A stretch of DNA of 39,910 nucleotides. Source: Opitutia bacterium. GTDB lineage: Bacteria > Verrucomicrobiota > Verrucomicrobiia > Opitutales > Opitutaceae. The notes under the pieces are model-generated. The model ran no database searches and was not told where the DNA came from. It was given only the letters and a program-made list of their open reading frames with translations. The stretch lies in the NCBI GenBank assembly GCA_947467625.1, contig CANIJN010000015.1, positions 1 through 39,910 on the forward strand, read 5' to 3'. Every line of letters starts with the position of its first letter. Positions within the stretch are counted from its first letter, which is position 1. Below, in pieces: positions 2,946 through 39,910 of this stretch. The position numbers and the translations under genes were made by a program.

Positions 2946-3827
2946 TTAGGCGGCACCCCTTCCCTCGGCCGGCGTTCCCGCTGACACGAGCCGCCCCTGC
3001 CGTCGCGCCGCCCACAAACCGTGCTTCGGTGCGAAAACCAAGGCGGTCAAAAAGACTGCCGCCTGCAAGAGCACAATACACGCCCCCGTTGACGCATTGA
3101 TGAAGAAGCTCAGATAAACGCCAAAAAAGCTGGAGCCCATCGCACTCGCGGCGGCGATGAGGAGCATCGAGCTAAATCGATCCGTCAGCAGATAGGCGAT
3201 ACACCCGGGCGTCACCAGCATCGCAATCACCAAAATGATCCCCACCGCCTTGAGCGAGACCACGATGGTCACGGCCAGCAACGACAGGAGTAAATAGTGC
3301 AGAAACGCCGTGCTCAACCCGAGGGTCCGCGCGTGCCCGGAATCAAAACAATAGAGCAGCAGGTCGCGCCGCAGCACGAGGATCACCCCGAGCGTAAGCC
3401 CGGCTACGATCAAGGTGTCGCGCAGATCACCGGGAGCCAGCCCGAGGATATTTCCAAACAAAATGTGGTCCAGATGGAGGTCACTCTTCACCTTCGTAAA
3501 AATCACGAGGCCAAACGCAAATAAACCAGTGAACACCACCCCCATCACCGTATCCTCCTTCACGCGGCTGTTGGCTTTGATGTAGCCGGTGGCCACCGCG
3601 CAAAAGAGCCCCGAGGCAAACGCGCCCACCGCCAGCGGCAGACCGATCGCGTAGGCGATCACGATCCCAGGCAGCACCGCGTGCGAGATGGCATCGCCCA
3701 TCAACGACCAGCCTTTGAGCACCAGATAACACGAGAGCACCGAACACACTGCGCCGACCGCAATGCCGACGATCATCGCATCGACCATGAACCGGAATTG
3801 AAACGGCGCGAGCAGCGTAGTGATCAT
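2946..3827 (-). CDS. Metal ABC transporter permease, second subunit (SitD/YfeD-like)
   Basis: A 293-residue ABC-3 family integral membrane protein. About eight hydrophobic segments are visible, with the family motif GWSLMGDAISHAVLPG near residues 35-50 and a second conserved block AMLVTPGCIAYLLTDRF. It should form the membrane channel of a Mn/Fe/Zn importer together with the paralogous permease just upstream. The start is ATG 3827 (MITTLLAPFQF), whose ATGA overlaps the stop of that permease by 4 bp, indicating translational coupling; the longer upstream frame is a shadow of the neighbour. The two permeases are clearly related to each other, as in SitC/SitD and YfeC/YfeD. The metal is inferred from the operon, not from this protein. 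Confidence 0.93.
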   Translation of the reverse strand: MITTLLAPFQFRFMVDAMIVGIAVGAVCSVLSCYLVLKGWSLMGDAISHAVLPGIVIAYAIGLPLAVGAFASGLFCAVATGYIKANSRVKEDTVMGVVFTGLFAFGLVIFTKVKSDLHLDHILFGNILGLAPGDLRDTLIVAGLTLGVILVLRRDLLLYCFDSGHARTLGLSTAFLHYLLLSLLAVTIVVSLKAVGIILVIAMLVTPGCIAYLLTDRFSSMLLIAAASAMGSSFFGVYLSFFINASTGACIVLLQAAVFLTALVFAPKHGLWAARRQGRLVSAGTPAEGRGAA

Positions 3828-30063: not shown

Positions 30064-31107
30064 TTACGCGAACTGCTTCAGAAAGCGGACGTCATTTTGG
30101 TAGAAGTAGCGGATGTCATCGATGCCGTAGAGGAGCATGGCGAGACGTTCGAGGCCCATGCCAAAGGCGTAGCCGCTCCAGACTTCGGGGTCATAGCCGA
30201 CGTCGGCGAAGACGGTCGGATCAACCATGCCGCAACCACCGATCTCGATCCACGGCTTCTTGACCTTGGGCAGATGGGTTGCGGTGAGATCGACCTCGAA
30301 ACTCGGCTCGGTGTAGCCGAAGTAGTGCGGGCGGAAACGGGTCTTGGTCTCTTTGCCGAGCAGCGACGCGAAGATGTAGTCGAGTAGCGCCTTGAGGTCA
30401 CGGACCGTGACGTTCTTATCGACGTAGAGACACTCGAGTTGGTGAAAGTTCGCGGAGTGCGTGGCGTCGGTGGTGTCGCGGCGATAAACGCGACCGGGGG
30501 ACACGATGCGGATGGGCGGCTCGCCCTTGAGCATGGTGCGGATCTGCACGGACGACGTGTGCGTGCGGAGGAGATATTTTTCCTCGGGATTGTGCTTCGA
30601 GACGTTGGCGAACTTGGCGGTCGCGGGGAGATAGAACGTATCTTGGGCGTCACGCGCGGGGTGGTCGGCGGGCGTATTGAGGGCGTCGAAACAGTAGTAC
30701 TCGGTCTCGACCTCGGGGCCATCGGCGACGGTGAAACCGACTTTGCGCAGAATGCGGCACATCTCTTCGCGGACGAGCGTGAGGGGGTGATAGGTACCGG
30801 GGCCGATGTCGGGGGCCGGCAGCGTGGCGTCGACGGCGGGCCCGAGTTGGGCTTGGAGCTCGGCGGCTTCGATCTGCGCGAGGGCGGCATCGAGGAGCGA
30901 CTGGAGACGGGTTTTGGTCTCGTTGATGAGCTTGCCGAGTGCAGGGCGCTGCTCCTTCGGAACGGTGCCCATCTGCTTCATCAGCGCAGTGAGTTCGCCG
31001 TTGGGCCCGACGTAGCGGGCCTTGGCGGCTTCGAACTCGGGGCGCGTGGTCAGCGCGGCGAACTCGGGTTGCGCTTTAGCGACGAGGGCGGTGAGGGTGT
31101 CTTGCAT
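30064..31107 (-). CDS. pheS: Phenylalanyl-tRNA synthetase alpha subunit
   Basis: A 347-residue PheS, the catalytic class II subunit. It has an N-terminal coiled coil (about 1-90), motif 2 near THSANFHQLECLYVDKN and motif 3 GYAFGMGLERLAMLLYGI. It makes Phe-AMP and charges tRNA-Phe with PheT. ATG 31107 (MQDTLTALVAK) is preceded by a CA-rich repeat with no good Shine-Dalgarno. A strong terminator after rplT lies about 100 bp upstream, so pheST may have its own promoter or depend on read-through. Confidence 0.97.
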   Translation of the reverse strand: MQDTLTALVAKAQPEFAALTTRPEFEAAKARYVGPNGELTALMKQMGTVPKEQRPALGKLINETKTRLQSLLDAALAQIEAAELQAQLGPAVDATLPAPDIGPGTYHPLTLVREEMCRILRKVGFTVADGPEVETEYYCFDALNTPADHPARDAQDTFYLPATAKFANVSKHNPEEKYLLRTHTSSVQIRTMLKGEPPIRIVSPGRVYRRDTTDATHSANFHQLECLYVDKNVTVRDLKALLDYIFASLLGKETKTRFRPHYFGYTEPSFEVDLTATHLPKVKKPWIEIGGCGMVDPTVFADVGYDPEVWSGYAFGMGLERLAMLLYGIDDIRYFYQNDVRFLKQFA

Positions 31108-31125
31108 GGAAAATGAACATTAAAC

Positions 31126-31149
31126 CACAGAGGCACCGAGCGCACGGAG
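31126..31149. repeat. CACnGAG short tandem repeat before pheS
   Basis: CACAGAG (31126-31132), CACCGAG (31134-31140) and CACGGAG (31143-31149) are spaced 8 and 9 nt apart. They match the CAC-n-GAG pattern of the other periodic repeats, with no pairing arm in sight. Confidence 0.65.
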
Positions 31150-31203
31150 AAAGACAAAACGACGAAATATTTTAAGGATCACACGTTGGCGCGCGAGCGG
31201 CAC

Positions 31204-31236
31204 AAAAAAGGACGGGCCTCGGAGAAGCCCGTCCTT
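31204..31236 (-). terminator. Intrinsic terminator after rplT
   Basis: AAGGACGGGC (31208-31217) and GCCCGTCCTT (31227-31236) form a perfect 10-bp stem with a 9-nt loop. On the minus strand it is followed by a T-run (31204-31209). It ends the rpmI-rplT transcript before pheS. Confidence 0.92.
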
Positions 31237-31250
31237 GGAAATTTGACGAG

Positions 31251-31274
31251 AACGCGACCCACTCGGGTCGCGTT
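31251..31274. repeat. Perfect hairpin directly after rplT stop
   Basis: AACGCGACCC (31251-31260) and GGGTCGCGTT (31265-31274) pair perfectly with a 4-nt loop. It lies 10 bp below the rplT stop and 15 bp before the terminator stem, with no T-tract of its own. It may protect the mRNA 3' end. Confidence 0.8.
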
Positions 31275-31283
31275 CGCTCCGCT

Positions 31284-31667
31284 TTAAGCGGTCTTGGGGG
31301 CAGCGGCCTTGGCCTGCAAAGCGGCTTGGACCGTTTTGACCAAGCCGGTGAAGGCGATTTCGTCACGGATCGCGAGATCGCTCAGGACCTTGCGGTCGAG
31401 CTCGATGTTGGCGGCGTGAAGACCTTCGATGAAGCGGCTGTAGGTGATGCCGTTATTACGGCAAGCAGCGTTGAGGCGCACGATCCAAAGACCGCGGCGA
31501 TCAGACTTCTTCTTCTTGCGGTCGATGTAGGCGTATTGCCAGGCATGCTGGACAGCTTCTTTCGCGTAGCGGAAGAGCTTGGATTTATTGCCGAAATAGC
31601 CCTTGGCGTATTTCAGGATTTTCTTGTGTCGCTTTTTAGCGGCGGGAGCGTTCGTTGCACGAGCCAT
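31284..31667 (-). CDS. rplT: 50S ribosomal protein L20
   Basis: A 127-residue basic protein of the large ribosomal subunit. Conserved blocks are RHKKILKYAKGYFGNKSKLF, then YAYIDRKKKKSDRRGLWIVR and NAACRNNGITYSRFIEGL. The C-terminal tail is Ala/Lys-rich. It is 92 bp after rpmI; infC, the usual partner, is not in this window. L20 often represses its own operon through an mRNA structure; none is recognised here. The usual long Lys/Arg N-terminal region is present after a short AlaThr extension (MARATNAPAAKKRH). Confidence 0.98.
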   Translation of the reverse strand: MARATNAPAAKKRHKKILKYAKGYFGNKSKLFRYAKEAVQHAWQYAYIDRKKKKSDRRGLWIVRLNAACRNNGITYSRFIEGLHAANIELDRKVLSDLAIRDEIAFTGLVKTVQAALQAKAAAPKTA

Positions 31668-31759
31668 GTTGGTTTATTCCTTTTGGTTAATCGTCGGCAG
31701 GTCGGCTTAGTTCACCTGCCGGACGAAGTTTTGGTTGATGCCTTGCGCGGACGGCTGGT

Positions 31760-31954
31760 TTAGAGGCCGAACGGCAATGCCCGCAGAAGGGGCTTGGCAT
31801 GGCCTGGGGCGACAAGCTTGTCGCGGGAGGCACGTCGTTTGGACTTCGTGCTCTTCGCGGAAAGCAAGTGCCGGAAGCCGGGCGTGCGGCGAATCAGCTT
31901 TCCGGTTCCGGAAATTTTGAAGCGCTTGGCGACGGACTTTTTGGTCTTTTGCAT
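31760..31954 (-). CDS. rpmI: 50S ribosomal protein L35
   Basis: A 64-residue basic ribosomal protein. It begins MQKTKKSVAKRFKISGTGKL and contains RRTPGFRHLLSAKSTKSKRR, matching L35 family length and pattern. ATG 31954 is chosen; the longer frame adds ten unrelated residues. It is the first gene of the rpmI-rplT transcript, and its promoter should lie within the next 100 bp upstream before the repeat at 32052. Confidence 0.97.
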   Translation of the reverse strand: MQKTKKSVAKRFKISGTGKLIRRTPGFRHLLSAKSTKSKRRASRDKLVAPGHAKPLLRALPFGL

Positions 31955-32051
31955 GGAGGGAAGGTCAGAAAACAGAGGCGGCACGCGGAGATGGCAAGGG
32001 GAATGTGCGTGGTTTTCCGGGGAAAAGAGAACTTGAACCTAAGAGCGGATA

Positions 32052-32192
32052 TTGAAACACAGCGAGCGCGGACCAGGTCAGGAGGAAATGAAACGCGCGG
32101 GCGGCTCCCCCGGCGGGAGACACCTCCGCAGTGCACCCAACATGGTTTTCGCCTCCGCACACCCTGCGCACTCCGCGTCTTCTGTGTTTCAA
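32052..32192. repeat. Inverted repeat with 9-nt period upstream of rpmI
   Basis: TTGAAACACAG (32052-32062) pairs with CTGTGTTTCAA (32182-32192), and GCGCGGA-like sequence next to each continues the pairing after 4 mismatches, giving 21-nt arms around 100 nt. The right side shows four 9-mers, CTCCGCACA, CCCTGCGCA, CTCCGCGTC, TTCTGTGTT (32153-32188). A CTCCC/GGGAG hairpin lies inside (near 32105-32119). Confidence 0.65.
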
Positions 32193-32250
32193 CGGCTTTT
32201 TCTGAGGTAAGCACGTCCGCTCCCTCAAAACCACGGAGGAACCGCCGTAG

Positions 32251-32360
32251 TATTACTCTGTTAAGTTCATAGCCAAAAAAACTACAATTCCCACAGGTAG
32301 TGTCACGTAATACGTGACACTTTTAAGGGACGTTTTTGAGAGGGAAATAACAGAGTAATA
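32251..32360. mobile_element. 110-bp MITE-like element with 13-bp terminal inverted repeats
   Basis: TATTACTCTGTTA (32251-32263) and TAACAGAGTAATA (32348-32360) are perfect inverted repeats. Taking TTACTCTGTTA as the end, TA flanks both sides, as expected for TA-targeting (IS630/Tc1-like) elements. Near the centre is a 10-bp palindrome pair AGTGTCACGT-AAT-ACGTGACACT (32299-32321). The interior is far more AT-rich than the surroundings. No transposase is present. It may be a non-autonomous transposon or another type of dispersed repeat. Confidence 0.6.
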
Positions 32361-32378
32361 ATCGCTCCCTGTGGCCAT
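32253..32378 (-). CDS. Possible 41-residue hydrophobic peptide within the repeat element
   Basis: The ATG at 32378 lies three bases past the ggt stop (TAG GAA ATG). The frame runs through the element and ends at the TAA inside its left inverted repeat. The peptide begins MATGSDYYSVISLSKTS, and its second half (VTYYVTLPVGIVVFLAMNL) is hydrophobic enough for one membrane span. Codon usage is unlike neighbouring genes. Most of it is element sequence, so it may be accidental; translational coupling to ggt is possible. I cannot assign a function. Confidence 0.3.
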   Translation of the reverse strand: MATGSDYYSVISLSKTSLKSVTYYVTLPVGIVVFLAMNLTE

Positions 32379-32381
32379 TTC

Positions 32382-34079
32382 CTACCAACCGACGGCGACA
32401 TTGGTGCGCCGGGGGTCAGCGTAACCGGTGAGCGTGCCATCGGGATTGAACGCGATGGCGTTGATGCCACCGAAATGGCGGCCGCGGCCGGGCTCTTCGG
32501 GGAGGACGACTTTCCAGCCCAGCGCAACCAGCGCCTCAGCATCAGCGGCTGGGAAGCTGCGTTCACCTTCGATCGTCGCGGGGTCGGTCGTATTGAGAGC
32601 GGGCACAAAATGCATGCGCGTATCCCCGATGGCTTCGGCCAACGGGCGATTGAGCGTCAATCGGTCGAGGAGCGTCTGCAGCATCGCCGTGGGAATGCGG
32701 GCCGCCCCGGGGATACCGAGGGCGAAGACGGGCTTGCCATCACGGAGGACAATCGACGGTGCGATGGTACTGCGAGGGCGCTTGCCGGGGGTTATGTAGT
32801 TGACGCCAGCCGGGCCGGTGTAGGCGAAGTTGCTCATCGAATTATTCATCACCACACCCGTGCCCGGAGGAACGACCCCGGCGCCGAAATGCAGACTCTG
32901 CGATTGCGTGGCGCAGACGATGTTGCCGGCGGAATCTGCGACGAGAAAGTGGGTGGTCGCGGCCAGCGGGCTTTCGGAGAACGGATTGTCGTCGCGAAAA
33001 ACGGACGTGAGGCCGGCCGGCTTCGGGGAGAAAACCTGAGCGCGGATCTCACGGATGGAGTCCGGAGCGAGGAGTTGTTCGACCAGCGCGCGGGAATGCT
33101 CGGCATCGCCCACCGAACGGGACACGAGGGGCGCCACGACGCGGAGGACGCGCCCGATCCGGTCGAGATTAGCCGGAGTGCGCAGCGGACCGCCACCGAA
33201 AGTCTCGTCTTCGAGCACCTTCATGATCGTGAGAAACAACGCCGGGCCCTGCGCTGGCGGTGGAGCGGCCACAATGCGGTAGCCGCGAAAGTCCACCGTG
33301 GTGGGCGCGGTGATACGGGCTTCGTAGCGGCCAAGATCGTCGAGCGTGAGCACTCCCCCGCCCTCCTGGGAAGCTTTGACGATGGCGGCAGCAACCGGGC
33401 CGCGATAGAAGCCGTCGCGACCGTGCCGGGCGAGACGTTCCATCGTGCGGGCGAGGTCTTCGTTGGGGAGCAACGTGCCGACGACGGGAAGCTGGCCGTT
33501 GGGCAGATAGAGGCGGGCAATCTCGGCGTCGCCGCGCTTAAGTTTCTTTTCCGACTCCTCGAAAAACTCGTAAGACTTCGGGAGAATGAGAAACCCTGCG
33601 CGCGCGAGCGCGATGGCGGGCTGCACGGTCTCAGCCCACGGTTTTTCGCCCCATTTTTGGTGGGCCGTCCAAAGTCCGGCCGCGAGGCCCGGCACGCACA
33701 CGGAGCCGTAGCCGTAGCTGCGGCTTTCCACCGGGCGCTTCACGTAGGCCGCGACGTCGAGCGAACCGGCGGCGTCCATGCCATCGACCACGTAGGTTGT
33801 CCCGCTCTTGGCCTCATAATAGAGCAGCATGAGTTTCCCGCCAAGGCCGGAGCCGTAGGGTTCGGCGACACCGACGGCGAGCGAGGTGGCGACGGCAGCG
33901 TCGATGGCGTTGCCGCCGGCCTGGAGCACGGCGAGACCGGCCGCGGCGGCCTGCGGGTGCGCGGCGACCACCATGCCGCGCTGGGCGGTCACGGGCGTGA
34001 TCGTGACCGGTGTCGCGGCGGCGGCCGACGCGAGCGCGCAGGTGAACGCGAGGAAGGATGTGAGGATATTAGGGCGCAC
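32382..34079 (-). CDS. ggt: Gamma-glutamyltransferase
   Basis: A 565-residue N-terminal nucleophile hydrolase that cleaves gamma-glutamyl bonds of glutathione-like substrates in the periplasm. The N-terminus (RPNILTSFLAFTCALASAAA) is a signal peptide. The proenzyme large-subunit part shows GGNAIDAAVA, and autocleavage should occur before Thr375 in AATTHFLVADSAGN, the catalytic nucleophile. The small subunit includes NNSMSNFA and GKRPRSTIAPSIV. The start GTG 34079 directly follows the T-tract of the upstream gene's terminator; a TTG at 34109 lies inside that stem and is unlikely. Expression may depend on read-through from the TonB receptor or on a promoter inside its end. Confidence 0.94.
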   Translation of the reverse strand: MRPNILTSFLAFTCALASAAAATPVTITPVTAQRGMVVAAHPQAAAAGLAVLQAGGNAIDAAVATSLAVGVAEPYGSGLGGKLMLLYYEAKSGTTYVVDGMDAAGSLDVAAYVKRPVESRSYGYGSVCVPGLAAGLWTAHQKWGEKPWAETVQPAIALARAGFLILPKSYEFFEESEKKLKRGDAEIARLYLPNGQLPVVGTLLPNEDLARTMERLARHGRDGFYRGPVAAAIVKASQEGGGVLTLDDLGRYEARITAPTTVDFRGYRIVAAPPPAQGPALFLTIMKVLEDETFGGGPLRTPANLDRIGRVLRVVAPLVSRSVGDAEHSRALVEQLLAPDSIREIRAQVFSPKPAGLTSVFRDDNPFSESPLAATTHFLVADSAGNIVCATQSQSLHFGAGVVPPGTGVVMNNSMSNFAYTGPAGVNYITPGKRPRSTIAPSIVLRDGKPVFALGIPGAARIPTAMLQTLLDRLTLNRPLAEAIGDTRMHFVPALNTTDPATIEGERSFPAADAEALVALGWKVVLPEEPGRGRHFGGINAIAFNPDGTLTGYADPRRTNVAVGW

Positions 34080-34107
34080 AAAAAAGGGCCGGCCAAGAGA
34101 CCGGCCC
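34080..34107 (-). terminator. Intrinsic terminator after TonB receptor gene
   Basis: CCGGCCC (34101-34107) and GGGCCGG (34086-34092) form a 7-bp stem with an 8-nt loop, and the minus strand continues with six T (34080-34085). The ggt GTG codon follows immediately, leaving no intergenic leader. Confidence 0.88.
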
Positions 34108-34120
34108 AAGGACTGACAGC

Positions 34121-37100
34121 TTAAAGTTTCTTGGTGACTTGCAGCGAATAGGTGCGACCGCGGGCCATGACGTTGTAGAGGCCGACTTCGTAGCCGCGGG
34201 AATCGGAGGAGAGCGGGGGCTTCGCCTCGAAGAGGTTGTTCACGCCGAAGCGGATGGCGGTGTTATTGAGCCAACGATTCTGCGCCACCACCCGGTAGCT
34301 CACGAACAGATTGTACGTCTTCGAATCATGGACGACGTAACGGTAGCTGTACGAACCGTTATTGAAGATGGGCTTGATGTAGCTCGGGTTGCCGAGGCCA
34401 TCCCAGATGGACTGCGTCGTCGTCGCACCGGTATCGGTGTAGCTGGCGATGTAATACATGCCGAGGCCGGCGCCCCATTGCTTGTTGCGCCAACTGAGGG
34501 TGGTCGTCCCGCGCCAGTCGGGGAGCGGGCCGTTGCCGTTGCCGCCCTTGTAGTTCGTGCGCGGTGAGCCGGGGGCGCTGTAGGCGTGAAAATCATTCAG
34601 GTAATTCCAGTTCGAGTTTAGGTTGAACTGGCCGACGGCGAGCTGCGGGAAGCGGTAATTGATATCGAAGTCGAAGCCATTGGTGAACTGCTCGGACTTG
34701 TTAAAATAACTGGCGAGGATGCGCTCGATGCCGCCGACGGTGGCGCGCTGATTGCCGGGCGTGCGGGTGGCATTGTAGGCGGCGAAGGCGGCGGTGTCGG
34801 CGGCGGTGATGGGGAGGCGCACGATGGAGGGATCGCCTTTGTAGTTCGCGGTGCCGGAGCCCGTGTCGATGCTACCGATGCTCTTGCCAGCGGCGAGTTC
34901 GGCTTGAGTGAAAGCTTGGAGCGCGGCGGTATCGTCGGCGATGCCGCCACCGGTGGCGATGAGGTCTTTCTGGCGAATCTCGTAGTAGTCGACGCCGATG
35001 GAGAGCCCTTTGATGCGGGGGACTTCAACGACGATGCCGACGGTTTTACCGGTAGCGGTCTCAGGCTGGAGACCTTGATTACCGGAGGCGATGCTGCGGC
35101 GGTTCGAGGCACCATCGGTGATGAGGCCGGTGACTGTGCTGCGGTACGTATCGGTGCTGCCGGTGACGGTGCGGATGAGCGTGCCGGTGAAGAGCTGCGC
35201 GAGGTTGGGCGCGCGGAAACCCTTGTTGTGGGAGGCGCGAAACATGAGCCACGAAACGGGTTTCCAGTTCAGGCCGAACTTGGGTTTCGTGGTGGCGCCG
35301 AAATCGGTGTAGCTTTCGTAGCGCGCAGCGGCGGAAACTTCGAGCGACTGGACGAACGGGAGTTTGAATTCGCGGCCGACGAGCGGGATCACGGTCTCGG
35401 CATAGAGAGCGGCGACGTGACGATTGCCGTGAGTATCAGAGTTGGGCGAAAAGCCGAGGAAGTCGTTAGAGTTCAGATCGAGGCCGGAGCCGCTGGGATT
35501 CAGGCCTGCGTAGGGTGGGCGGTAGTCGTCATAGCCCTCGAAGCGGAACTCGCCACCGAAGGCGCCGCCGATTTTGTTACCACCCCACAGTGGGAACACA
35601 TCGCCGCTGGCGCGGAAATCGCCGCTGCCGAGCTTGGTGATGCCGCTACGAATGAAGCTGGAGCGGAAGGTGGAGGTGACGCTGTCGGGATTCGTGTAGG
35701 GGCCGGTGACGACGAGCGCGCCGTTTTGCACGGCGAAGCTCCGGGTGAACGGATTGAAAGCCTTGGCCGGATCGGTCTGATTGACGGCGGCGATGAGAAG
35801 GCTCTTTCGGCTGGGCCCTTCTTCGTTCTCAATCACGCGGGCGGTGGACCAAAGGAGCGCAGCTTCCCAAGTCCAGGAATCGAAGATTTTTCCGCGCAAA
35901 CCGGCGACGCCGCGATACACGGAGTCGTCCACCCAATCGGTGCGGAGAGCAAGGTCGGTGAGGCGTTTGTTGGTGATGGATACGGAGGCGGGCGTGCCGG
36001 TGAGGCGGGGCGTGCCGTCGGTGTTGGCCGCGCCGGTCGTGGACCAGAAGCGGCTGCCGAAGGGGTTGTAGGGATTGTTCACGGGGACGATGACGAAGCC
36101 ATCGGTGCTCTGCGTGATGCCATCCATCTCGCGGTAAGTGACCGACTCGGCGCGGTAGAGGCTGGCGTCAGCGAAGAACGTAATGGCGTTGGTGAGATCA
36201 TATTCGGCGCTGGCGAAAATATTTGTGCGCTGCGATTTCGGCTGGATGACGCGGTAGGCGTTGTTGTTCCAGTAGTAGTCGCGGGTGACGCCGAGACGGC
36301 TCGGAGCGGCGGTGCCGAAGACGGCGCCACCGGTGCCATTCGGCTGGAGAACGAAGAGTCCCGTGGTGGCGGCCATCGTGGCAGGGACGCCGGCGGGGCG
36401 CGCGCCGGCGAAACCAGTGACGGCACCGTATTGATCGGTGGTGGTGACATTACCGACGAGGAAGTTGCCGTATTCGGTGGTGGCGGAGCGAGCGTTGAAA
36501 CTGGAAGCGGCGGTGAGGGAGGAGCCGTTGGAGACATTCCACGGAGCGGGCGCGAGGTTCGAGTGGTCGGCGTCGGCGGCGAAGCTGCGGACGTTGGCGA
36601 GAATCGCGGCGCGGCTGTAGAAGTCGGCATTGACCATCGCGCGGCCCTTGCCCTTGCCGAACGAGAGGCCGTGGGTGAGCGTGGCGCGGGACTCGCGGCC
36701 GTCTCCGTAGCTGGTCTCGGCGAAGCGGACGGAAAGCTCGGTGCCGCTGAAATTTCTCTTCGTGGCGTAATTCACGACGCCGGCGACGGCGTCGGTGCCG
36801 TAAACCGAGGAAGCGCCGTCGCGGAGCACTTCCACGCGCTCGAGGCCGCGATTCGGGAGTTGGTTGACGTTGACCGAGAGCGTGGGGACGCCGGCTTCAC
36901 CCTGGCTGATGGGATGCGGCACGACGCGGCGACCATTGACGAGGATGAGCGTATTGCTCGAGGGGATGCCGCGGAGAGAGATGGAGGCGTTGTCGCCGCG
37001 AGCGGTGGCACCGAGGGTGGCGGTTTCGTTTCCGGGGAGGCCGGTCACCTGCGGGAGCGCCGTGAGGAGATCAGATGGCTGGGAGGCGTCGCGGATTTCA

Positions 37101-37312
37101 ATCTCGGAGGTGCCGAGAATCGTAACCGGGAGAACTTTTTCGTAATCGAGGCGCTTGATGTTCGAGCCCGTGACCGAGAAGGCCTCAAGTTTGATGGTCT
37201 CCTCAGGCTTGCTGGTCGAGGAAGGCGCGGGAGCGGTCTGCGCGAAGGCGGTCGCGGCGGTCAGCGCGAAGGCCAAGGCGGTTCGGAGTCGGGTGTAACG
37301 CAGGTGGTTCAT
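34121..37312 (-). CDS. TonB-dependent outer-membrane receptor, complete
   Basis: A 1063-residue receptor. A signal peptide (RTALAFALTAATAFAQ) is followed by LEAFSVTGSNIKRLDYEKV, which starts the plug domain at about residue 42; the plug continues to about 190 with LRGIPSSNTLILVNGRRVVP and LRDGASSVYGTDAVAGVVN. The rest is the 22-strand barrel, with a TonB-type C-terminal end LQVTKKL. Transported substrate is unknown, and carbohydrate or siderophore both remain possible. ATG 37312 (MNHLRYTRLRT) has no good Shine-Dalgarno. A terminator lies directly after the stop, then ggt. It is a tandem paralogue of the receptor upstream. Confidence 0.94.
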   Translation of the reverse strand: MNHLRYTRLRTALAFALTAATAFAQTAPAPSSTSKPEETIKLEAFSVTGSNIKRLDYEKVLPVTILGTSEIEIRDASQPSDLLTALPQVTGLPGNETATLGATARGDNASISLRGIPSSNTLILVNGRRVVPHPISQGEAGVPTLSVNVNQLPNRGLERVEVLRDGASSVYGTDAVAGVVNYATKRNFSGTELSVRFAETSYGDGRESRATLTHGLSFGKGKGRAMVNADFYSRAAILANVRSFAADADHSNLAPAPWNVSNGSSLTAASSFNARSATTEYGNFLVGNVTTTDQYGAVTGFAGARPAGVPATMAATTGLFVLQPNGTGGAVFGTAAPSRLGVTRDYYWNNNAYRVIQPKSQRTNIFASAEYDLTNAITFFADASLYRAESVTYREMDGITQSTDGFVIVPVNNPYNPFGSRFWSTTGAANTDGTPRLTGTPASVSITNKRLTDLALRTDWVDDSVYRGVAGLRGKIFDSWTWEAALLWSTARVIENEEGPSRKSLLIAAVNQTDPAKAFNPFTRSFAVQNGALVVTGPYTNPDSVTSTFRSSFIRSGITKLGSGDFRASGDVFPLWGGNKIGGAFGGEFRFEGYDDYRPPYAGLNPSGSGLDLNSNDFLGFSPNSDTHGNRHVAALYAETVIPLVGREFKLPFVQSLEVSAAARYESYTDFGATTKPKFGLNWKPVSWLMFRASHNKGFRAPNLAQLFTGTLIRTVTGSTDTYRSTVTGLITDGASNRRSIASGNQGLQPETATGKTVGIVVEVPRIKGLSIGVDYYEIRQKDLIATGGGIADDTAALQAFTQAELAAGKSIGSIDTGSGTANYKGDPSIVRLPITAADTAAFAAYNATRTPGNQRATVGGIERILASYFNKSEQFTNGFDFDINYRFPQLAVGQFNLNSNWNYLNDFHAYSAPGSPRTNYKGGNGNGPLPDWRGTTTLSWRNKQWGAGLGMYYIASYTDTGATTTQSIWDGLGNPSYIKPIFNNGSYSYRYVVHDSKTYNLFVSYRVVAQNRWLNNTAIRFGVNNLFEAKPPLSSDSRGYEVGLYNVMARGRTYSLQVTKKL

Positions 37313-37420
37313 GGTGTCGGAAGAGTTGAGGATTGAACGTGACGATCAGGTTAACAAAAATCAAATCTTCCCGCCCGAAACGCCACCGGTCGGCGCCAAG
37401 GCCGGACGGACGGCGAAGAC
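37313..37420. other. 108-bp gap between tandem TonB receptors
   Basis: This gap should hold the terminator of the upstream receptor and the promoter of the downstream one. I see a GTTAAC palindrome (about 37351-37356) and a CCGG-containing stretch, but no stem followed by a T-tract and no convincing -35/-10 pair. Confidence 0.35.
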
Positions 37421-39910
37421 TCAGAAGCGTTTCGAAATCTGGCTGTAGAACGCGCGGCCTCGGGGGTTGGTGCCGGCGCTGCGTTGGTAGCCGACGTCGG
37501 TGTCGGCGAGCGGCGGTTCGGCGTCGAAGACGTTGTTCAGGCCGAAACGCAGGGAGACGTTGGCGAGCAGGCTGCCACGCTGGCGCGGGAAGGCGTAGTT
37601 CACGTAGGTATTGTGCGTCGTGGACGACGTCACGAGGTAACGGTAGCGCCGGACGCCGCCGGAGTCCACGTAGGTGGAGATATAGTCGGGCTGGCCGAGG
37701 ACGTCGTAGATTTCCTTCGTGGTCGCCGTGCCCGTATCGACGTAGGGGCCGTAGTAGGTGACCGCCCAGCCGGCCGTCCACCGCTCCTTGCGCCACGTGA
37801 GCCCGATGTTGCCGCGAAAACGGGTGCGGCCGTCGCGGTTGATGTCGTTGATCTTCGGTTGGCCGGGCTCCGAGACGGTGTCGTATTGAAGCAGGCAGGA
37901 GGCGTCGCCGCGGAGCGTGACCTGACCGAAGCGGGCCTTGGGCAGCCGCAACTCGATGCCGTAGTCGAGGCCCTGCACCTCGCGGCCGGCAAGATTCACG
38001 TAGTCGGTCACGATCGAACGCAAGCTGCCGACAGGGACGCGCTGATTGGAGGGCGGGCGCGTGGCGTTGAAGGCCGTGAAGGCCGCGAGGTCCGCCGGGG
38101 TCACGGGATCGCGGACGATCTTGGGATTGCCGACGTAGCTGCTCGTGCCGCTGCCGAGATCGATCTGATTAAGGGTCTTCCCGGCGGCGAGGGCCTTCTG
38201 CACCGCACCGTCGAGCAGTTCCTCGTCGAGCAGGAGCTGGGTGGTGCCCGTGACGGACGCGATCACGTCCTTCTGGTGAATTTTCCAGTAGTCGACGGTG
38301 ATCGTGAGGTCGCGGTAGAACGGCGCGGAGAGCGCGATGCCGGCGGTGATCGAGCGCGCGTTTTCGGGTTTCAGGTCGGCGTTGCCCTGGCGAAACGTGA
38401 CGGGCACGGAGCTGGAGTCGCGGTTGAGGCCGGTGACCTCGGAGCGGTAGACATCGTTGTAAGTGTTGCCGGAGCGCTGCAGCGGAGTGTTATTCGTCTG
38501 GACGAGATTGGGGGCGCGAAACGAGGCGGCGACGGTGCTGCGCAGCATGATCCAGTCGGTGGGCCGGTAGTTGAGGCCGAACTTCGGCTTCGAGGTCGTC
38601 CCGAAATCGGAGAAACGCTCCGTGCGGCCGGCGATCGAAAGCTCGAGTTTGCGGACGAGGGGTTTGCGGTTGGTCTTGCCCACGAGCGGCACGAGCGCTT
38701 CGGCAAACACGGAGGCGACGGTGCGCGCGGCGTAGAGATTCACGTTGGGACTGAGCGCAATGAAGTCGTTCTCGAGCGGGCCGAAGAAGAGATTATTGGG
38801 ATTGGCGGGATTGCCGTCGTAGGGCGCATTGGCGGGGTTGAGGCCAGCATAGGGCGGACGCCAGTCCTTGTAGTTTTCCCAGCGCATCTCGCCACCAAAC
38901 GCGACGCCGATAGGGCCGCCCCAGAGCCGGTCAAAGACCGAGCCGTTGACCTTGAGGTCCCAGCTCGCGAGCTCGGTGCGGCCCTCGCGGATGAAGTTGT
39001 CGTAGAGCGTGGCGGTGAGGGCGGCGGGATTGCTGTAGGGCTTGTCGACCATGAGTAGGTAGGGATTGGCCGCGTTGCCGGGCTGCGGCACGAGCTTGAA
39101 GGTGTAGTTGAAGGGATTGAAGGCCTTCGTCGGATCGGAGCTCGTGAGCGCGGTGCGCAGGCGGCTCTCGCGCATCGCGAAAGCTTCTTCGTCGTGCGTG
39201 GAATTGCGCCCGTAGAGCACCCCGGACTCCCATTCCCAGCCGCGGGCGAGGCGACCACGAAGGCCGCCGACGAGCCGGATCGCGTCGGAGTTCACAGTGA
39301 TGCGGCGGGGCTGGAAATCACGCGGAATCACGCCGACGCCGCTGAGGAACTGGATCTGCGAGGGAGCGCCGGTGAGGCGCGGCGTGCCGTCGGCATTGGG
39401 GCGGCCGGCTACCTCGTAGAAGCGCGAGCCGAAGGGATTGAAGGGGTTGTCGGCGCTGACGTAGATATTGTGGTCGGTGGCGACGTCGAACTTGTTGGGC
39501 AGGCGTCCCGTGAGGGACACGGAGCGGTAGGCGAGCAGTTCGCCGAAGAGCTCGAGGTTGTCCTGCAGCTTGTGGTGGAACACCGCGGTCAGGTTCGCGC
39601 GGTCCGTCTTCGGCAGGATCGGCTTATGATCATTGGGATTTTGAAACCAATTGACGGTCGGGTCGTCGATGTTGTGCGACGGCAGCGTCTGGCGCCAACC
39701 GATGGCTCCAGCGGCCAGCGGAATCAGGTAGAAGGTGCCGTTGGTCGCGAGCGTCGCGGACGTGCTGCCCGAGGTGGTGATGATGCCCTGGTTGGTCGTG
39801 GGCCGAGCGCCGACGAAGGTGCCGACCGCGTCATAGTTGCCGCGCACGAAACCGCCGTAATAGCTGCCGTCGGTGCTGAGACGATTGTCGAAGTTGTTGT
39901 TGCGCGAGAC
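37421..39910 (-). CDS. TonB-dependent outer-membrane receptor, 5' part outside window
   Basis: The frame is open to the window end, giving 829 residues of the C-terminal part. The signal peptide and most of the plug are outside; the sequence at the edge reads VSRNNNFDNRLSTDGSYYGG. It ends with the aromatic-terminated SQISKRF, and the last stretch NNVFDAEPPLADTDVGYQRS is close to the NNLFEAKPPLSSDSRGYE of the downstream receptor, so the two are tandem paralogues. Blocks such as SSYVGNPKIVRDPVTPADLA also align with GTANYKGDPSIVRLPITAAD in the other. The substrate is unknown. Confidence 0.9.
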   Translation of the reverse strand, partial: VSRNNNFDNRLSTDGSYYGGFVRGNYDAVGTFVGARPTTNQGIITTSGSTSATLATNGTFYLIPLAAGAIGWRQTLPSHNIDDPTVNWFQNPNDHKPILPKTDRANLTAVFHHKLQDNLELFGELLAYRSVSLTGRLPNKFDVATDHNIYVSADNPFNPFGSRFYEVAGRPNADGTPRLTGAPSQIQFLSGVGVIPRDFQPRRITVNSDAIRLVGGLRGRLARGWEWESGVLYGRNSTHDEEAFAMRESRLRTALTSSDPTKAFNPFNYTFKLVPQPGNAANPYLLMVDKPYSNPAALTATLYDNFIREGRTELASWDLKVNGSVFDRLWGGPIGVAFGGEMRWENYKDWRPPYAGLNPANAPYDGNPANPNNLFFGPLENDFIALSPNVNLYAARTVASVFAEALVPLVGKTNRKPLVRKLELSIAGRTERFSDFGTTSKPKFGLNYRPTDWIMLRSTVAASFRAPNLVQTNNTPLQRSGNTYNDVYRSEVTGLNRDSSSVPVTFRQGNADLKPENARSITAGIALSAPFYRDLTITVDYWKIHQKDVIASVTGTTQLLLDEELLDGAVQKALAAGKTLNQIDLGSGTSSYVGNPKIVRDPVTPADLAAFTAFNATRPPSNQRVPVGSLRSIVTDYVNLAGREVQGLDYGIELRLPKARFGQVTLRGDASCLLQYDTVSEPGQPKINDINRDGRTRFRGNIGLTWRKERWTAGWAVTYYGPYVDTGTATTKEIYDVLGQPDYISTYVDSGGVRRYRYLVTSSTTHNTYVNYAFPRQRGSLLANVSLRFGLNNVFDAEPPLADTDVGYQRSAGTNPRGRAFYSQISKRF

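Follow-up and report, generated by a model that had tools for sequence, protein, structure and literature searches.

The bacterial MITEs treated in the main text of one review (PMC10969869), which include the Correia elements of Neisseria, ERIC and others, are short and geneless, have inverted ends and a target duplication, and lie in many intergenic copies. They are described there as carrying promoters and IHF sites, and for the Correia elements a site for this host protein is reported. The word IS701 does not occur in that main text, and PMC9208149 mentions IS701 in general surveys only. Two kinds of small palindromic repeat are also relevant. REP/REPIN repeats, with their RAYT partners, are small dispersed palindromes that form doublets, lie in some genes and frame a gene of their own; REP-framed tyrosine transposase genes are described in a paper whose main text contains neither "opitut" nor "verrucomicrob" (PMC6006769), and GTAG repeats, many of them inside genes, are reported from Opitutus terrae (PMC3733652). 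Rickettsia palindromic elements of about 150 bp, as outlined in PMC10969869, are palindromic stretches that lie in frame in unrelated genes.

The element that we describe here lies in the window, the stretch of 39,910 nucleotides that was analyzed. In its build it is an unremarkable MITE that adds a member to a known kind; like the MITEs above, it is short and geneless and has inverted ends, a target duplication and many intergenic copies. Unlike the MITEs in the text of PMC10969869, it has ends that match an IS701-family element, and its centre is a palindrome that is also found outside the MITE, where it frames a gene for a helix-turn-helix (HTH) protein. This palindrome resembles the REP/REPIN repeats of PMC3733652 and PMC6006769 in its dispersal, its doublets, its occasional position in genes and its framing of a gene; unlike them, as they appear in those texts, it is a perfect palindrome with one central base, has no GTAG tag as a rule, and frames a gene encoding a small HTH protein rather than a tyrosine transposase. 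GTAG is missing within 10 nt of 234 of 246 palindromes, but the palindrome may still be one of the repeat families reported from Opitutus terrae. The palindrome also differs from the Rickettsia elements, as covered in the review, in being only about 21-25 bp long, in framing the HTH gene and in sitting inside a MITE. Among the open-licence papers listed, no title or abstract start named IS701-linked MITEs, MITEs of this family or such a repeat. The whole is probably best explained as a slightly worn MITE of about 110 bp, moved by an IS701-type transposase, whose centre is the dispersed palindrome that frames the HTH genes and is presumably bound by their product.

Perfect 13-bp inverted ends, which the sequence-only reading had already recognized, bound a 110-bp element at window positions 32251-32360 (Table 1). 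That reading also named a near-central palindrome of 10 bp; its presence stands, but its real extent is 21 bp (GTGTCACGTAATACGTGACAC, 32300-32320), perfect around one unpaired base, or 23 bp when the next pair is included. That this palindrome is itself a dispersed repeat was not seen there. The MITE is separated by 21 bp from the stop codon of ggt and sits between this gene and a cluster of pheS and rplT (both by Pfam) and rpmI (by eye) at 30064-31955, which follows ggt on the same strand. Upstream of ggt, two large ORFs on the same strand (34121-39847) have TonB-dependent receptor domains. Viral contigs scanned with ggt gave no match.

Table 1. Features of the MITE and its surroundings in window coordinates.
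Feature	Position	Strand	Basis
Left target-duplication remnant GTAG (ancestral CTAG)	32247..32250		Allele without the element in G094 (L169)
Left terminal inverted repeat TATTACTCTGTTA	32251..32263	+	Same 13 bp end the G094 IS701-family element
Inner left part of the MITE, with A run	32264..32298	+	Least conserved part in the 51-copy alignment
Central palindrome AGTGTCACGTAATACGTGACACT, copy of the family-dispersed palindrome	32299..32321		Highest conservation within the MITE when G062 is set aside
Inner right part of the MITE, with T runs	32322..32347	+	51-copy alignment
Right terminal inverted repeat TAACAGAGTAATA	32348..32360	-	Sequence and repeat reading
Right target-duplication remnant ATCG	32361..32364		Comparison with the G094 empty site
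41-codon ORF, insertion by-product	32253..32378	-	Not conserved
ggt, gamma-glutamyltranspeptidase	32382..34109	-	Pfam PF01019 G_glu_transpept, E 1.5e-120

The window's genome (G000) is a draft of 5.59 Mb in 362 contigs, 96.1% complete, and shares its genus with G099 and G097. It holds 14 near-full matches to the element, itself included, at 82-100% identity (40 of the 44 candidates scored), so that the multiple copies expected of a transposable element are present. A search for paired ends among the fetched loci also gave 14 copies in this genome; one list is without C254 and the other without C97, and combined they give 15. Across several genomes, discarding four duplicate records left 51 end-bounded copies. 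A few copies in this set are orthologous between sister species, and most were found with a probe that contains the palindrome, which biases the set toward intact palindromes. Some copies are altered. One in G098 (L117, C290, 212-450) is divided into two halves by some 120 bp of other sequence, which apparently inserted later at the palindrome; another (L111:670-792, G098:C10) has about 11 extra bases in mid-palindrome that resemble a partial duplication of the core. L052 (G079:C301) and L104 (G097:C233) hold the same MITE with near-identical flanks; their genomes are placed in different genera, and transfer is a less likely cause than a contig misplaced in one of the drafts.

The 23-bp palindrome occurs at 46 places in G000 with up to 2 mismatches, and its reversed control at none. 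Single palindromes, doublets spaced by about 55 bp and palindromes within genes all occur. The element as a probe matched at least 53 of 252 genomes and at least 23 of 49 genera of the bacterial family (three candidates scored per genome), and most of the matches listed cover the palindrome alone. Among 387 genomes drawn across the phylum, the palindrome (up to 1 mismatch) was found in 5 of the 37 that belong to the family and in none of the 350 outside it. These comparisons show the MITE centre to be a copy of a palindrome dispersed in the family outside MITEs. Its variants keep the arms matched (GTCACCTA/TAGGTGAC, GTCACTTA/TAAGTGAC, GTCATCTA/TAGATGAC and GTAACC/GGTTAC), and the base pair flanking the 19-bp core is G/C in 153 of 246 palindromes with up to 1 mismatch and T/A in 58.

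By a crude gene finder, 9 of 49 palindrome sites in G000 lie inside predicted genes. The palindromes may resemble the Rickettsia elements, as reviewed, in lying in frame in unrelated genes: six Pfam-matched genes (genes with the insert only) hold eight sites, namely those for a radical SAM protein, DEAD_2, a methyltransferase, EamA, a glycosyltransferase and an RNA methyltransferase. In these genes the palindrome is translated as CHV[IL]RD. The loci are L030 (G000:C87), L032 (C64), L034 (C214), L035 (C150), L036 (C4) and L045 (C230). The radical SAM gene is rlmN-like by eye and has two palindromes, and the DEAD_2 gene has two plus a degenerate third; in G171 (L073) a palindrome lies in an rlmN-like gene at seemingly the same place. 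Other repeats were met along the way. Tandem units with a period of 77 bp, each with a TTGTCACG palindrome and further inverted repeats, occur at L046:2750-2990 and L040:626-721 (G000:C358 and C63), one of these arrays coming after the HTH gene. A separate dispersed repeat, roughly 95 bp long, lies in the flank of L102 (G099:C22, about 3098-3196 of the query) and has many matches in G000, G094, G097, G098 and G099 among the matches listed.

On contig C358 of G000, a 138-codon ORF lies between palindromes, and in G072 two doublets of the local GTCAT palindrome enclose a related gene. We fetched 20 further stretches, mostly chosen for closely spaced palindromes. Over all loci collected by then, an HTH-family gene occupied seven of the eight gaps of 200-900 bp between strict palindromes; the eighth consists of two adjacent MITEs. 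We also fetched 40 stretches from 22 genomes around palindrome hits that were not chosen by gap. All three gene-sized gaps in them hold an HTH gene, and no other of the 40 does (two are without a palindrome by the strict rule). This makes 10 of 11 gene-sized gaps by the strict rule. By a looser rule applied to all loci, it is 10 of 14, the misses being L112 (two adjacent MITEs), L231 (G159), L232 (G001) and L283 (G122). In the loci collected before these 40 stretches, all 10 HTH gene midpoints fall within 350 bp of a palindrome, compared with 18.2% of 522,013 unique bases, and four of the 10 fall within 200 bp, compared with 11.7% of bases. The HTH loci were reached through palindromes, so these framing counts hold for stretches neighbouring palindromes. 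In all, the gene was found at 13 loci in 13 genomes and six genera, with recognized palindromes on both sides at 10 loci and on one side only at L237, L238 and L181; at L233 the upstream palindrome is in the reading frame ahead of the likely start. From these loci, the palindromes are shown to frame genes of one small HTH protein family.

The framed protein gave nothing over cut-off against Pfam and NCBIfam. Its best PHROGs match has E 0.012, and the weak matches in these searches are mostly to HTH families. Modelling of the G000 protein gave confident coordinates for residues 71-138 (block means 80-92), a stretch that we read as a compact, all-helical domain with a predicted helix-turn-helix. 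A Foldseek search with this model gave a best E of 0.16, and a sequence search of the PDB gave weak matches only (best E 0.076). The best 50 rows from VIA, at Z 5.6-8.1, include HNF-1A, POU, controller proteins, lambda repressor and similar proteins; according to the tool, Z values of this size may mean only a common arrangement. No relatives were confirmed in viral contigs (204 pattern matches) or plasmids. In the helix that follows the turn, the position three beyond RQR holds E, Q or D at 9 of 9 loci with GTCAC half-sites, L or V at 3 of 3 GTCAT loci and N at the single GTAAC locus. With loci treated as independent, this association of half-site and residue (9/0 against 0/4) has a Fisher p of 0.0014. 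In the 434 and P22 repressors the operator is read by Gln33 and Val33, respectively, with the valine packed against thymine methyl groups; the residue three after RQR may be at the matching position. On balance, the framing and the co-variation suggest binding of the palindrome by a dimer of the HTH protein, which we think somewhat likelier than otherwise.

The palindrome could instead be a passenger. The MITE would once have been built around it, and its arms would be kept matched by template-switch correction of quasi-palindromes rather than by protein binding. Matched changes in both arms do appear in single copies (GTGTCCCGT..ACGGGACAC in L114; ATGTCAC..GTGACAT in L101, L056 and L020), and some variants pair by G-T only, such as TGTCATTTAATGGATGACA in G062, where eight of nine copies have TGTCATTTAATGGATGACA or TGTCATCTAATGGATGACA and one is of the GTAAC type. 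Conservation inside the MITE depends on the copies compared. When G062 is set aside, the remaining 42 copies have a mean pairwise identity of 0.90-0.91 for the palindrome arms, compared with 0.81-0.84 for the inverted ends and 0.70-0.72 for all other positions; for the 14 copies of G000 the values are 0.96-0.99 (arms), 0.86 (ends) and 0.79-0.85 (elsewhere). Part of this excess may stem from the palindrome-holding probe. Once the nine G062 copies are included, arms (0.82-0.83) and ends (0.81-0.83) are about equal, as a passenger would have it. What argues against it is that one gene family is framed by the same palindrome across six genera, and that half-site and helix residue change together. 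We consider the passenger account unlikely.

A second alternative is that the palindrome acts as an RNA hairpin, serving as a bidirectional terminator or as a site of transcript processing, a role reported for the Correia elements of Neisseria. The window copy lies directly past ggt and has a strong predicted fold (32245-32368 as single-stranded RNA; z -5.2 on one strand and -4.4 on the other, with none of 200 shuffles as good), and A tends to precede and T to follow the stem. However, all 15 copies in G000 are intergenic in convergent, tandem and divergent contexts alike, as judged by a crude codon-usage gene finder, and other palindromes lie inside genes. A scan of 31900-32700 found no intrinsic terminator or promoter, with 0 terminators compared to 1.1 in shuffles. 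Rfam gave three matches, all far below gathering scores, so no known RNA family was recognized. A hairpin function is therefore improbable as the main explanation of the palindrome.

It is equally improbable that a RAYT (Y1) transposase, not recovered in these searches, moves the palindrome as an ordinary REP unit. The doublets are similarly spaced: 267 unique palindromes (up to 2 mismatches, in the fetched loci) form 65 neighbouring pairs within 130 bp, and in 38 of these the starts are 53-57 bp apart. Palindromes also lie inside genes, and Opitutus terrae is reported to be rich in GTAG REPs that do so as well (PMC3733652). Against this, GTAG lies within 10 nt of the stem in just 12 of 246 palindromes, degenerate tags being uncounted, and the gene that is framed is the HTH gene. 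The two Y1-transposase loci of G000 have no palindrome within the stretches fetched, and a RAYT partner was rejected for this genome on that ground. Binding by the HTH protein remains our preferred reading of the palindrome.

The movement of the MITE as a whole can be followed through empty sites. The sister species G094, 95% identical beside the window site, has CCGCC-CTAG-CTCCC where the window has CCGCC-GTAG-[110 bp]-ATCG-CTCCC. G099, 96% identical over 3.1 kb, has the element at the window's site. In G095, G096, G098, G100 and G101, ggt was matched but the region beyond it no longer aligns, and the search for the window site gave no match in G097. As these alleles read, the element jumped into the window site after the sister species split. 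We also checked 12 other sites by their joined flanks, ten of G000 and two of G099. A clear empty allele is present in at least one relative at seven of them (C176, C207, C244, C92, C10 and the two of G099), and one of the G099 sites is empty in the window's own genome. At C356 and C51 the empty alleles are imperfect; for C62, C104 and C1 there was no spanning match among the matches listed (33 candidates scored per genome).

Occupied sites carry a four-base sequence, for example CTAG or CTAA, twice, and empty sites carry it once. In 15 of 51 copies the 4-mers on the two sides agree, where shuffling gives a mean of 6.1 and none of 10,000 shuffles as high a count; the 15 pairs are 8 CTAG, 4 TTAG, 2 CTAA and 1 CGAG. 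Of the 29 copies without CTAG on either side, 7 have matching 4-mers, a number reached in 5 of 10,000 shuffles (mean 2.0). Flanks identical over 5 bp occur in none of the 51. The target duplication is thus 4 bp, and the TA belongs to the ends. The sequence-only reading had taken the element to be flanked by TA and had proposed a search for empty TA sites. Empty sites do exist, the window's own among them, but the target is CTAG-like, the TA is part of the inverted repeat, and the window copy's duplication has decayed to GTAG and ATCG. By this comparison of genomes, the copies, the inverted ends, the 4-bp CTAG-like duplication and the occupied and empty alleles between sister species show the element to be a MITE.

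A partner for these ends was found in the same sister species. We searched the end sequence in 13 genomes and obtained contigs broken off a short distance into an end, which is typical of multi-copy insertion sequences. Four contig ends in G079 read CTAG-TATTACTACGTTAAG. G094 has one nearly complete element with the left end CTAG-TATTACTCTGTTAAG, and its right end TATTACTCTGTTAT lies on two other contigs. CTAG is thus outside five left ends (L080-L083 and L085), whereas the right ends L087, L088 and L084 have CTAT and TTTT (G094) and CCAG (G079) outside. The G094 insertion sequence was pieced together from contigs, and no copy has both ends and flanks on one contig; its right-end contigs match the last 42 residues of its transposase at 100%. 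This transposase, 421 residues from the chosen methionine, matches Pfam DDE_5 (1.6e-64) and NCBIfam NF033540 IS701 (344 bits, cut-off 150), and has relatives in 6 of the 12 genomes searched. The same 12-genome search gave no IS701-family transposase match in G099 or in G000, the latter a draft 96% complete in 362 contigs, so the enzyme is either gone there or lost in assembly. A further same-ended element may exist at L086 (G094:C273, minus-strand end at 783), where a CTAG-TATTACTCTGTTATG end is followed by unrelated sequence.

The MITE and the G094 element have identical 13-bp ends, and CTAG lies outside the left ends seen of the insertion sequence. They share only these ends, 16 bp on the left and 14 bp on the right; the MITE is without a transposase and is not an internal deletion of the G094 element. 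Because a sister-species element has the same 13-bp ends, with its left end beside CTAG, movement of the MITE in trans by an IS701-family DDE transposase is strongly supported at the level of sequence. The initial suggestion of a non-autonomous transposable element thus holds, given the copies, the empty sites and the same-ended insertion sequence in a relative. The partner transposase that it called for was found in G094 and not in the window's genome. An alternative is an element of the IS630/Tc1 kind with a 2-bp TA target. The ends begin with TA, and CTAG targets are known for IS630. However, the 4-bp duplications include CTAA/CTAA and TTAG/TTAG, empty sites have a single CTAA or CTAG, and the same ends occur on an IS701-family element. 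The non-palindromic duplications rule out a TA-type element, and we regard this alternative as very improbable.

An ORF begins three bases past the ggt stop and passes through the element, as had been noted from the sequence; the peptide was thought to be either an artefact or a small membrane peptide that the element distributes. The frame is open for at least 34 codons in 5 of 51 copies, and only two of these, the window copy and its G099 ortholog, read this peptide, the three G098 copies reading another. In G094, without the element, the same ATG gives MDAGS and then a stop (five codons). The ORF is therefore not conserved among the copies, the idea of a distributed peptide falls away, and, judged by these alignments, the 41-residue peptide is an artefact of insertion. 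A functional membrane peptide coupled to ggt, for which one could cite an ORF of equal length in the 96% identical ortholog (L050), was rejected as barely credible given 5 of 51 open frames, three of them with a different peptide, a closed frame in G094, and differences between the two orthologs that, by eye, are not biased to silent changes.

These results suggest the following mechanism for the MITE. An IS701-type transposase would recognize the 13-bp ends, insert the MITE at CTAG-like sites and duplicate 4 bp. The core palindrome would descend from the family's dispersed palindromes or have a common source with them, and the HTH protein would be the partner of these dispersed palindromes. 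Every jump would then set a putative HTH binding site between genes. The steps up to insertion rest on genome comparison, and we infer binding and the effects on genes. That it matters to the cell or to the element when jumps drop predicted binding sites into intergenic DNA is a tentative idea, one that we would sooner doubt than assert. We give nearly even chances to a REPIN-like repeat system in which the partner is a palindrome-framed small HTH protein, palindrome and helix change together by lineage, and an IS701-driven MITE sows putative sites. If this is true, REP-like repeats gain a second kind of partner, a dedicated HTH protein. The upkeep of repeats would also become testable as the work of a host protein that needs the sites, and not only of a transposase that copies the repeats. 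The natural half-site variants with matching helix changes would be a ready test of protein-DNA specificity, and the presence or absence of the MITE between sister species would allow a direct test of regulatory rewiring by jumping sites.
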